From IMG/VR virus record IMGVR_UViG_3300030098_004595, positions 1 to 22,819 of that record: 22,819 nt of DNA; one strand, given 5' to 3'. Shown here in pieces: positions 2,525 through 10,683 of the stretch. Position 1 is the first letter of the stretch. Every line of letters begins with the position of its first letter. The notes under the pieces were generated by a model, which did not search any database, had not been told where the DNA came from, and saw only the letters and a list, made by a program, of their open reading frames with translations. Made by a program: the position numbers and the translations under genes. Source of the stretch: a virus.

Positions 2525-4050
2525 TAAGCTACTATCCAACTCCTTGCTTTAGGTTTATGCTTAGTCCAGGAACCCTGTTTATCTTTTTTCATAGAAGTAG
2601 GTGGATGTGCATACTTACATGCATATGCTAATGCATCTATAGTATCATCATGGCCCATTCTAGGTCCAAAAGTCATTATTTCCCTTTGAAGATCATAATG
2701 ATCTTTTTTAATGAAGACTGAGCCCACTGAAAACCTTTGTGCCAATATCTCTTGTATTCTATCTCTTTTAGACATTCTATTACCAGGCTTTTCTGCAGTA
2801 TACTTGATAGTGAAGTCATTACGTCTTCGCATTTCTGCATTAACCGCTTGAAAGACTGGCTTTGACATAGTTGTGTCTTCAATGCAAAATAAGTTTGGAT
2901 TATATATTTTATTGTACCTGAATATATAGTCCACAATGCCTCTCCTGTCATCTTGTCCCGGTATGCCAAGTACAGGTATAGAACGCTTCCTGAGATAATC
3001 AAGTACATAGCAATTGTTATGGCTGTCAACCCCAACAGCAAGTAAAACACTAAAGTCGCTATCCCTACGAGCACTATCTGTAGCTGGGTCAACCCCAACG
3101 AAAATATTGACTGGTTTTTCATCGCCTTCTTTTGTTCTGACATATGCAATCCCTGTCTCCTCATCTCTATAAAAAGTGCCATCCCAATACTTGATATGGC
3201 TACGAGTAAAAATAGCATCGGCTTCATTTTGAACTTCCATCATGTATTCTTGATAGAATTTCTGCGGCACACCGTTATCCGAATAAAATTTCTTTTTTCT
3301 CTCCATTTCTTTATGACCAAACCATGAAGGCCATAAAGGAGTTCCATCTTCTTGCAGTGCTTTATATGTTACAACATCCCAGGAAAAACTTTCTCCTTGG
3401 GCTTTAGCTTTATTGTAACCATTTAATATATTCGTAACAAAAGCATCAAAATGCACTGGAGTTCCATTAATACGCAAACGGCCATCAGTTGGCTCTAATG
3501 CTGGAAAGACTACTGCTGTAACTAAGTTAGCTATCTTAGCACGAGACTCAGGAGTCCCTGTATTATTTTCATCTTCAAAGTCGTCTAAGATTATTAGATC
3601 ATATCTTTTATGCAACTTTGCTCCGCCTCTAATACCAGAAAGATTAGATTTAGATATCAATTTACAGCCATTTTTAAGCTCAATATCGTCTTCTGTCCAT
3701 TTTCTTCCCTTGACGTCCCCGAAATAATAACGTACTTTATCATTATATTCCAAATGATATTTTACATAATCTAAATTTGGTACAGAAATTTTACTAGAAG
3801 CAGCAACCCATCCATAAAATAATGGGTCCTCAGCAAATGCAAAATCATGTACAATACTGCACTTAGTTAATACAGTCTTACCATGACCACGAGGCAATAT
3901 AACTGCCATTTGCCTAATGCTATGATCATTAAGTCTATCTGCTACTTCATAATGGAAGAAAGGAGTTTCACTCCTCATAAAGTCATCAGGTAAAAAAAGC
4001 TTTCCAAATGCTATTAAATCATTTTTAGCAAGAAGAAGCTGACTCTCCAT
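2524..4050 (-). CDS. terL: Terminase large subunit (ATPase-nuclease)
   Basis: The large terminase is the DNA-packaging motor and headful or cos cutter. The 508-residue protein has both expected domains. The N-terminal ATPase has Walker A LPRGHGKT at residues 52-59 and Walker B LIILDDFED at about 152-160. In Walker B the usual DE pair reads DDFED. The C-terminal RNase H-like nuclease has VGVDPATD (Asp321), FCIEDT (Glu391) and GHDDTIDALAYA (Asp468 and Asp472). Length fits the family (about 450-600). The ATG at 4050 has only a weak ribosome site (CTGAG). The stop overlaps the next gene. Neighbours are a zinc-ribbon protein upstream and, further upstream, the small-terminase-like gene, a common phage arrangement. 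Confidence 0.96.
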   Translation of the reverse strand: MESQLLLAKNDLIAFGKLFLPDDFMRSETPFFHYEVADRLNDHSIRQMAVILPRGHGKTVLTKCSIVHDFAFAEDPLFYGWVAASSKISVPNLDYVKYHLEYNDKVRYYFGDVKGRKWTEDDIELKNGCKLISKSNLSGIRGGAKLHKRYDLIILDDFEDENNTGTPESRAKIANLVTAVVFPALEPTDGRLRINGTPVHFDAFVTNILNGYNKAKAQGESFSWDVVTYKALQEDGTPLWPSWFGHKEMERKKKFYSDNGVPQKFYQEYMMEVQNEADAIFTRSHIKYWDGTFYRDEETGIAYVRTKEGDEKPVNIFVGVDPATDSARRDSDFSVLLAVGVDSHNNCYVLDYLRKRSIPVLGIPGQDDRRGIVDYIFRYNKIYNPNLFCIEDTTMSKPVFQAVNAEMRRRNDFTIKYTAEKPGNRMSKRDRIQEILAQRFSVGSVFIKKDHYDLQREIMTFGPRMGHDDTIDALAYACKYAHPPTSMKKDKQGSWTKHKPKARSWIVA

Positions 4051-6461: not shown

Positions 6462-7286
6462 TTATTTGTGTAATATTCCATGAGCTTTCAAAGCTGACAC
6501 CATTCTTGTCACTCCAATACCACCACCGAAACGTTCAAACATATCAAGTGCTAAATACTCTTCTAGCTCATCTTCCACTCGTTTTTTACCAAAATGATTA
6601 TATAAAAGCTGTGCATATTCACCATCAGATATATTATGAAACTGATCACGCATTTCCTGTACATCTGTAGCTCTTTCTGCACTTCCAATAGTTTCCATTC
6701 CATGCATAATAACATCAACCTTATTATACATCCCATCACCTGCATGTTTCATATTCCAGAAAGGATGAGTCCTTAATGGGAAGTCTTTTAAAAACACACA
6801 AGGTGTATATTGCTTACATAAAGCATCTTCTTCATCATAATCCAATAAATTGACATCATAATGCTTACATGCATCATCATAACTAATTGTCTTATGTACT
6901 TCCCCAAACCCTAAATGTGATAATAGCTCTGTTTCAAGAGCCATCATATCTTGCATTCCTCCATGAGATTCAAATTCAAACATTGGGAAGACTTTATCAT
7001 GTCTACCCTCTACTGGATTTGGCTCATTTCTATAACTTGTAGTTATACAGAACACCCCTTTAGCATCAGGATTATCTAATAAATCCCTCTCTAACCACAT
7101 TTGCCCTGTTTGAGGCAATGGCCAGTTAATACCACTGAATATATATTGTGATATCGTAGCTGGATCTTCACATGCAGCTAATATAGACTGCCTTGATTGT
7201 GCTGGTACTTCAATGAATCCTTTCTCTTCTTGAAAGAATTTTCTCATCTCTTTTACTGCATAACTGTAGTCATACATATTTTTCAC
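6462..7286 (-). CDS. Class II aminoacyl-tRNA-synthetase-like catalytic core (Asp/Asn/Lys-type or AsnA-like), 274 aa
   Basis: The fold signature is clear. A motif-1-like segment TGQMWLERDLL lies at residues 60-70. Motif 2 is TSYRNEP with Arg86 and Glu88, then GRHDKVFPMFEFES at 94-107. Motif 3 is FGGGIGVTRMVSAL at 253-266 with Arg261. These residues bind ATP and the amino acid in class II enzymes. The Asp/Asn/Lys-RS subclass normally has an N-terminal OB-fold that reads the anticodon; here the core begins almost at residue 1, so that domain is absent. Stand-alone cores can make asparagine (AsnA, archaeal AsnRS-related enzymes) or modify other molecules, so function is open: amino-acid synthesis, tRNA charging or another adenylation. 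The start is GTG at 7286, with GAGGAG nine bases upstream. It lies early in the minus-strand operon. Confidence 0.85.
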   Translation of the reverse strand: MKNMYDYSYAVKEMRKFFQEEKGFIEVPAQSRQSILAACEDPATISQYIFSGINWPLPQTGQMWLERDLLDNPDAKGVFCITTSYRNEPNPVEGRHDKVFPMFEFESHGGMQDMMALETELLSHLGFGEVHKTISYDDACKHYDVNLLDYDEEDALCKQYTPCVFLKDFPLRTHPFWNMKHAGDGMYNKVDVIMHGMETIGSAERATDVQEMRDQFHNISDGEYAQLLYNHFGKKRVEDELEEYLALDMFERFGGGIGVTRMVSALKAHGILHK

Positions 7287-8943: not shown

Positions 8944-9198
8944 CGGATAATTCACTCTATAATATATACAAAGTGTTAGCACAATACGCAGTAAGCCATT
9001 AAGTGGACAACTCCTGTTAAAGGGTAATGTGTCTTTGTATTTATTATATAATATTGACTGATAGTTCCTGATACTTTAATCAGGCCACAATGAGCACACA
9101 TGTGATTCCCATATGGATTTGATCACCAGTGAGTGTATTGTGTGTACGTGCGGTAGAACAGATGAAAGGGACGAACCTGAGTAGTCTGTTCGCAGTCA
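8860..9198 (+). ncRNA. Candidate structured RNA 1 (about 340 nt)
   Basis: No convincing gene covers this gap, but complementary segments tile it. GCTACAAG 8860-8867 pairs with CTTGTAGC 8937-8944. The segment 8958-8973 pairs with 9033-9048 (15 of 16). TGACTG 9055-9060 pairs with CAGTCA 9193-9198 and encloses three helices: CCTGAT/ATCAGG (9067-9072, 9079-9084), CACAAT/ATTGTG (9086-9091, 9137-9142) and GAACAGA/TCTGTTC (9156-9162, 9185-9191). The last helix contains AGG/CCT. That describes a four-way junction at the 3' end. I assign the plus strand because the neighbouring genes are on it. No known RNA family was recognised. It may be a trans-acting RNA, a leader for the next genes or a large ornate phage RNA. 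Confidence 0.6.
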
Positions 9199-9774: not shown

Positions 9775-9848
9775 AGCGGGTACAAGCCTTGGTAGGCTAG
9801 ACGGTCTCATAAGCCGTAGTATTGTGTGTTCGATTCACACACCCGCAA
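9775..9848 (+). tRNA. tRNA with CAU anticodon (Met-like; possibly Ile2)
   Basis: The cloverleaf can be drawn. The acceptor 5' strand GCGGGT 9776-9781 pairs with ACCCGC 9841-9846. The anticodon stem ACGGT 9801-9805 pairs with GCCGT 9813-9817 around CTCATAA (anticodon 9808-9810). The variable region is six bases. The T stem GTGTG 9824-9828 pairs with CACAC 9836-9840 around TTCGATT. The D arm is poor: either AGCC/GGCT with a six-base loop or a shifted 3-bp stem. With standard numbering, positions 1 and 72 are A and A, a mismatch recalling bacterial initiator tRNA, and the 3' end CCCGCAAC also resembles it. The anticodon stem lacks the three GC pairs of initiators. No CCA is encoded. CAU may also be a lysidine-modified Ile tRNA. 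Confidence 0.75.
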
Positions 9849-9869
9849 CAAATATAGTTCGAGGTGATA

Positions 9870-9968: not shown

Positions 9969-9982
9969 AACTATTAAATTAA

Positions 9983-10290
9983 AAGTATAGCGTAGCAAAT
10001 GGTGACACTAGTTAAAGCCAATCGATAACGTTATCGTAGCACATTATATATCTGAGTCAATAGCTTAGAGACGAAAGATATGATGTGCTTTATTATTATA
10101 TCGGTCCTATCTTAAGCAGGGAGCTGGGTGGTACCAGTAAGAGTTAAAAATATAGCGTAACTCCATGTGATGCTGATAGTCTGCAGGCTATACTCTAAGG
10201 CTAAACCATGGAACTGTTATATGACTGTCGCTTAAAGTCACTCTACCGATATAATTCAAATTAGCCGAGTGTCTTAAGGACGCTATGCTT
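9983..10290 (+). ncRNA. Candidate structured RNA 2 (about 308 nt) closed by an 11-bp helix
   Basis: AAGTATAGCGT 9983-9993 pairs with ACGCTATGCTT 10280-10290 with one G-U. Inside this are CGATAA/TTATCG (10023-10028, 10031-10036), AGCACAT/ATGTGCT (10038-10044, 10083-10089) extended by ATATC/GATAT, and a perfect 11-bp long-range helix ATTATATCGGT/ACCGATATAAT (10095-10105, 10245-10255). The last encloses CTGG/CCAG (10124-10127, 10134-10137), TCCATG/CATGGA (10162-10167, 10207-10212), a hairpin with six pairs including one G-U at 10176-10191 and TGACT/AGTCA (10222-10226, 10236-10240). These helices are mutually nested and cover most of the stretch; no gene is seen. Strand follows the tRNA. Big phage RNAs near tRNAs (GOLLD, ROOL) are the nearest known idea, but I did not recognise their conserved sequences. 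Confidence 0.7.
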
Positions 10291-10507
10291 CTCCAAAGGG
10301 GAGGATGCCCCATTTTAAAGTCCTCCCCGTCAAATTGATAGTTCGTGAACTAATCCTCCAGGCGCGAAAGGCAGGATACTATCATAGCATATGATTTCCT
10401 TTCTCTTCATATGCGCGTACGATGACACTTCTTTTTTAGAAGTTCGAGTTACTGTTCGAGTAAAAAGATGTGGAGGGAAGATGTCGGTTATTTTCCCTTC
10501 TACATCT
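10291..10507 (+). ncRNA. Chain of hairpins after RNA 2, likely part of the same RNA or its 3' region
   Basis: Five hairpins follow without a gene. They are GGGGAGGA/TCCTCCCC (10298-10305, 10321-10328), with competing pairings GGGG/CCCC (10298-10301, 10308-10311) and CTCC with 10300-10303; TGATAGT/ACTATCA (10336-10342, 10378-10384) with inner ATCCT/AGGAT (10353-10357, 10373-10377); GCATATGA/TCATATGC (10387-10394, 10407-10414); ACTTCT/AGAAGT (10427-10432, 10438-10443); and AGATGT/ACATCT plus AGGGAA/TTCCCT (10466-10507). None ends in a T-run on the plus strand. The minus-strand frame here looks like a shadow. Confidence 0.55.
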
Positions 10508-10536
10508 AAAAAATTAAATAAAAACAAGGAGATATA

Positions 10537-10683
10537 ATGAAACATATATTAATATGTAAACAATGTGGAGATGTAGTAATGAATGACTCACATTTTGATG
10601 AGTGTTCTGATGATTGCATACTATATGAAACCAAAGATGAATCTTTTGCTGGTGAGGCAATAGTAGAATATATGAGGATGTGA
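10537..10683 (+). CDS. Small cysteine-rich (zinc-binding) protein, 48 aa
   Basis: I found this by hand. ATG at 10537 follows CAAGGAGATATA. It reads MKHILICKQCGDVVMNDSHF and continues with DECSDDC, giving paired cysteines at 7/10 and 23/27, a small zinc-ribbon or knuckle layout, then an acidic helix. The stop TGA lies 2 bases before the next ATG. The function is unknown; it resembles several other tiny zinc-ribbon proteins in this early region. Confidence 0.65.
   Translation: MKHILICKQCGDVVMNDSHFDECSDDCILYETKDESFAGEAIVEYMRM

Follow-up and report, generated by a model that had tools for sequence, protein, structure and literature searches.

Introduction

Few known RNAs are as large and ornate as GOLLD and ROOL, both of which form cages and for neither of which, to our knowledge, a function has been established. 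GOLLD is a long RNA, in many cases of over 800 nt, which assembles into a homo-oligomeric cage and whose 3' half is universally conserved. Small RNAs are also co-encoded with phage tRNAs, as in the tRNA cluster of T4, which encodes the stable RNAs C and D; we know of no function for these two RNAs, nor of any description of them as modular or exchanged. ROOL, a large ornate phage RNA, is often found near tRNA islands (PMC12286853), and the published GOLLD env-38, from a marine sample, lies downstream of a Met-tRNA (PMC12286853).

The window considered here (22,819 nt) covers the opening 22.8 kb of an IMG/VR virus record 53.5 kb in length. From its letters alone, an earlier note had singled out a stretch at 9983-10290 as a single nested RNA about 308 nt long, which might be a divergent member of a class such as GOLLD or ROOL, or a new class. 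The reading that we favour, with a probability of roughly 0.7, is a different one: the stretch holds two tandem autonomous RNA modules, A (9979-10096) and B (10095-10255), belonging to a modular island that is linked to a tRNA-Met gene and occupies a slot common with GOLLD, and these modules are presumed to act in trans. Window coordinates refer to the plus strand unless otherwise stated.

The RNA island and its relatives

A tRNA-Met (CAT) gene is placed by ARAGORN at 9775-9849, where it occupies the middle of the RNA island, and tRNA-Met(CAT) is also present in the corresponding island of many relatives. This is the only tRNA detected there; neither ARAGORN nor Rfam gave a tRNA or tmRNA within 9979-10258. 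Both the neighbouring tRNA and the lack of a gene, which the earlier note had reported, were found as described: on the plus strand no ORF of note crosses the flagged stretch, the longest within 9979-10258 being of 22 aa. Sigma-70-like sites showed no excess over chance. The segment 10259-10525, for which no homologue was recognised, is a further non-coding and strongly structured part of the island, with several hairpins and z values of -3.9 (10259-10335) and -4.1 (10335-10525) against shuffles. Between the tRNA and module A, the segment 9864-9968 contains a possible ORF of 34 aa, has AGTTC/GAACT ends and folds with fair stability (z about -2).

Elsewhere in the window, 6462-7286 (minus strand) encodes a 274-aa class II aminoacyl-tRNA-synthetase-like protein (PF00152), relatives of which occur in L012, L015-L018 and L025; in several of these a tRNA-Asn(GTT) gene of 85-96 nt, unusually long, lies nearby. 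The relatives of the AsnRS-like gene and those of the DUF932 gene yielded no copy of the RNA, and the right group was obtained with the relatives of the terminase, which are a group of uncultured phages known from metagenomes. Among named phages, neither a close relative of the terminase nor a copy of the RNA was found. Many of the relative records are fragments, so that the absence of a module from them is weak evidence. In one record (G006:6007-7527, minus strand) the terminase is intact but for one in-frame TAG, which may reflect a sequencing error or stop readthrough.

Conserved structure of modules A, B and R1

Module A of the window (9979-10096), of the type denoted A1, is made of a conserved TTAAAAGTATA, a local helix, a long arm with a conserved loop and a CTTTATTA tail. 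In the local helix (helix 1, 9987-10034), ATAGCGT (9987-9993) pairs with ACGTTAT (10028-10034) over 7 bp. The arm (10039-10088) consists of GCACATT (10039-10045)/GATGTGC (10082-10088), a bulge AT, ATATCT (10048-10053)/AGATAT (10076-10081) and GTC (10056-10058)/GAC (10070-10072), and carries the conserved loop AATAGCTTAGA (10059-10069) at its tip. A search among the terminase relatives by blastn, by patterns and then with a covariance model identified 10 other distinct sequences, all from uncultured viruses that belong to this terminase group; indeed, all module A carriers tested have the group terminase, at 78-88% identity. Besides the window, type A1 is carried by L098, L151, L180, L191/L192 and L100, and type A2, in which the long arm has an additional domain, by L096, L140, L209, L210 and L224; a covariance model built on A1 only still matches the A2 copies with their inserts (E 2e-5 to 2e-3). 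A pattern for the conserved loop retrieved only the known copies and chance matches.

Over the 11 module A sequences, 99.1% of cells are paired and 9 of 25 pairs have changed on both sides; none of 500 shuffles reached the covariation score, and slid controls were only 22-53% paired. Helix 1 is paired in 11 of 11 sequences, with both sides changed in three of its eight pairs (G-U/U-A, G-C/C-G/A-U and U-A/C-G), and each of the three arm helices shows compensatory changes. The same outcome was obtained from an alignment of six module A sequences produced by MAFFT only, in which no structure was used. The identity of the module A helices is clear from these sequence comparisons, at a depth of 11 sequences that would not let every pair pass a large R-scape test.

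Module B (10095-10255) is closed by the helix 10095-10105/10245-10255, which is the perfect 11-bp helix already pointed out in the earlier note and which covaries. Within it lie a hairpin (10123-10127/10134-10138), a helix (10140-10144/10240-10244) and an inner arm (10150-10157/10215-10222 and 10163-10167/10207-10211). Its sole full homologue, in L209, keeps 48 of 48 predicted pairs, six of them with changes on both sides. L208/L092 contains a minimal module B without the inner arm, and L224 has the 3' part only, as a fragment; a pattern search returned the known copies and chance matches only. Compensatory change across homologous contigs, a test that had been suggested together with the original description, was passed by both A and B.

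A further module, R1 (RNA 1; 9055-9198), is closed by TGACTG/CAGTCA and comprises a hairpin CCTGAT/ATCAGG, an apical insert of variable length and a near-invariant arm GAACAGATGAAAGGGACG..TCTGTTC. In the group 10 sequences contain it, most of them immediately 5' of the tRNA, and its covariance model matched 9 other records (E <= 1.3e-26). In R1, 98.9% of cells are paired and 13 cells have changed on both sides, with the hairpin switching from CCTGAT/ATCAGG to CCAGGT/ACCTGG. As in A, the compensatory changes of B and R1 exceed what shuffled and slid controls give. In bacterial and archaeal genomes, the R1 pattern gave two chance matches, both in coding sequences.

When the window was compared with the 4227 models of Rfam release 15, the matches at E <= 1 were confined to tRNA-Sec and two chance families; at this level there was no match to riboswitch, ribozyme or intron families. 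A separate search with RF01998 (group II intron fragment) gave nothing above its cut-off. The flagged RNA, for which this comparison had been proposed at the outset, has no Rfam match, and R1, A and B represent no fewer than three RNA families that are new relative to Rfam release 15.

A mosaic of modules around one tRNA

Around one tRNA-Met, the islands of the group draw on a set of modules (R1, A, B, M, N, Q/E, S, X and Z) whose combinations and orders vary. In the relatives, R1, the tRNA-Met and then A or B are usually close together; in the window, small ORFs lie between R1 and the tRNA. Module B is 3' of A in the window and 5' of A in L209, module A occurs without B in L098, L151, L180 and L192, and L100 has module A without any tRNA. 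Module M, whose copies in L140 and L151 share 92% identity along 145 nt, is located 5' of R1 and the tRNA in the former and 3' of the tRNA in the latter. Likewise, module E/Q precedes the tRNA in L192 and is found at the 3' end of the island in L096 and L209, and module X is 3' of the tRNA in L099 and L128 and 5' of it in L110 (matches at the tRNA were disregarded where the seed overlapped the tRNA); the copy of X in L128 has an insert, and that in L136 has none. All module copies keep the orientation of the tRNA. Some relatives have islands large enough for an RNA of GOLLD length, that of L151 being about 1.1 kb long, and in some relatives the fold of the whole island is no more stable than shuffles (z 0.1 in L180, 0.0 in L110). 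The segment 9979-10258 of the window is, in short, a pair of tandem, separately evolving modules taken from a larger shuffled set.

Inside the RNA island of L151, at 3200-3290 (minus strand), there is also a tRNA-like module with acceptor-like ends (GCGAGAG...CTCTCGCTACC) and a T-arm-like hairpin GGTGCAAATCC, for which ARAGORN makes no call. By eye, T-arm-like hairpins with TGCAAAT, TTCGAAT or TGTAAGC loops recur in otherwise unlike modules, at L128 ~7440-7390 (minus strand), L110 ~6760-6720 (minus strand), L180 3290-3325 and L210 8830-8860.

GOLLD in the same genomic slot

Within the terminase group, two members, G039 (L163) and G034 (L150), carry GOLLD (RF02032) at 155 and 167 bits, above the threshold of 150; the copies are located at L163:2048-2467 (minus strand) in G039 and at L233:1344-1743 (plus strand) in G034. 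Whether it holds module A or GOLLD, the slot lies upstream of the terminase in every case and on the strand opposite to it, that of the rightward gene cluster, with gaps of 3.3-6.2 kb from terminase to module A (12 records) and of 6.2 and 7.7 kb from terminase to GOLLD, the distances for G003, G034 and G042 assuming that the record ends join. In G039, GOLLD is accompanied by a tRNA and then module X, which other members have without GOLLD. In G034, a weak match to the tmRNA family (tRNA-like domain, L233:967-1047) is seen just upstream of GOLLD.

In the terminase tree, module A is found in the clade of the window and in a separate pair, L140/L151, and GOLLD in another lineage, so that the two are interspersed. 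No record among 49-51 has GOLLD together with A or R1, the two GOLLD records being too few to prove mutual exclusion. The parallel with GOLLD that had been drawn from the setting is borne out by these two relatives. A, B and R1 are conserved and autonomous RNA structures, shuffled among genomes and missing from Rfam, which lie in the same slot as the GOLLD of sister phages; we read them as positional counterparts of GOLLD, a term that does not imply homology to it.

Alternative readings of the flagged stretch

The alternative that survives best, and an improbable one, is that the RNA is a cis-acting leader, such as a riboswitch or an attenuator, of small downstream genes. Just downstream on the same strand, at 10537, there is indeed a small ORF that has a good ribosome-binding site. 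However, the first ORF 3' of module A differs among L098, L151, L100 and L192, and in the window, L209 and L180 the next element is another module; cis-regulation is unlikely because the sequence following module A differs in this way between relatives. Furthermore, there is no terminator-like site within the flagged RNA and no match to an Rfam riboswitch.

Slimmer still is the chance that the stretch forms a single ornate, nested RNA, about 308 nt long, which an outer 11-bp helix closes, possibly as a conformation alternative to the local helix. The outer helix exists in the window as the earlier note had drawn it, with one G-U pair (9983-9993/10280-10290), and it is included in the minimum-energy fold of the 308 nt. 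This fold (-87 kcal/mol) is more stable than those of shuffles of the same composition, a comparison which had also been proposed and which gave z of about -3 (-2.9 to -3.1). Among 400 dinucleotide shuffles of the 308 nt, an 11-bp helix with at most one G-U pair arose in 9% and a perfect one in 1%; an 11-bp helix spanning at least 280 nt arose in none, a figure that is biased in the helix's favour because the interval had been drawn to end there. In each homologue, a distal complement to the 5' strand of module A was then sought, L151 being judged by alignment. Whereas the window has a complement of 11 bp, as long as that found in about 1% of shuffled regions, the outer helix was present in 0 of 10 homologues, whose best distal complements (7-9 bp) were matched by 9-73% of shuffled regions. 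Moreover, its 5' strand consists of the same bases as the local helix 9987-9993/10028-10034, which is kept in all 11 sequences, and relatives have A without B or B before A. Since the outer helix is absent from the 10 homologues and competes with a conserved helix, the 308-nt outline falls: the outer helix is a feature of the window sequence only, outside the conserved structure, and it was rejected as a conserved or switching element, the local partner of its 5' strand being present instead in the homologues. What stands of the original description is that a structured and conserved RNA lies next to a tRNA; the architecture as a single nested RNA gives way to two tandem modules with a boundary near 10095. 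A palindromic hairpin CGATAACGTTATCG (10023-10036) is likewise seen in the window and broken in the homologues.

An equally small chance attaches to a highly diverged GOLLD, or a part of its variable 5' half. The slot and the tRNA-Met neighbourhood are those of the two real GOLLD copies, and env-38 shares the position downstream of a Met-tRNA (PMC12286853). The RF02032 test works in this group because two relatives match it, but no match was obtained in the record of the window (G000) even at E 10, and the suggestion of a divergent member was not upheld. By blastn, neither module A nor module B showed similarity to the 5' region at either GOLLD locus, the only clear match of the window being the tRNA. 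In addition, A and B, which measure 118-161 nt, are local closed modules that occur by themselves, in contrast to the length and conserved 3' half of GOLLD.

Finally, DNA-level inverted-repeat elements (MITE-like units or cruciforms) devoid of RNA function are very improbable: several modules do have inverted repeats at their ends, bordered by TA-rich sequence, and their location varies among genomes, but pairs in A and B switch to G-U (C-G to U-G, U-A to U-G), which makes a pure DNA element unlikely because such switches keep an RNA helix and not a DNA inverted repeat, and the loop AATAGCTTAGA, the internal junction bases and the tRNA orientation of all copies are kept.

Possible role and comparison with known systems

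For the two tandem modules of the favoured reading, a route to action in trans can be proposed. Plus-strand transcription would cover the island and the tRNA jointly; the modules would be freed through tRNA processing and through cleavage in AU-rich linkers, and in the infected cell they would work in trans as folded RNAs, in the role that GOLLD may have in sister phages. That the modules are trans-acting and functionally equivalent to GOLLD is an analogy that we put forward tentatively, with the odds somewhat against it. The alternation of GOLLD with other folded modules at one fixed slot constitutes a natural experiment, in that whatever replaces GOLLD should share its job. A broader proposal, for which we would give only slightly less than even odds, is that the slot serves as an exchange site for dozens of autonomous ornate RNA modules, of which GOLLD would be only one, and that these are swapped, nested and reordered around the tRNA-Met like gene cassettes, probably as targets such as host factors or defences change quickly. 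The observations also suggest that large ornate RNAs may evolve by the addition and shuffling of small autonomous modules.

Set beside the known systems, the window RNA has the setting typical of GOLLD (RF02032): it is phage-borne, non-coding and heavily structured, it lies near tRNA genes, specifically beside a tRNA-Met, and its slot is that of GOLLD in two group members. In contrast to GOLLD, it gives no sequence-structure match, and A and B are short closed units, which occur singly and whose order varies, and they lack any one conserved 3' core. With ROOL it shares the condition of an ornate phage RNA near tRNAs, but ROOL had no match in the window at E 1, nor in the islands of the relatives. 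The T4 stable RNAs C and D are similar as small stable RNAs encoded with phage tRNAs. As regards architecture only, there is a likeness to the expansion segments of large RNAs such as rRNA, in which helical inserts at apical or junction positions leave the core undisturbed, as do the extra domain that distinguishes A2 from A1, the apical insert of R1 and the inner arm of B; unlike in those RNAs, whole modules of the island also change their order and their neighbours.
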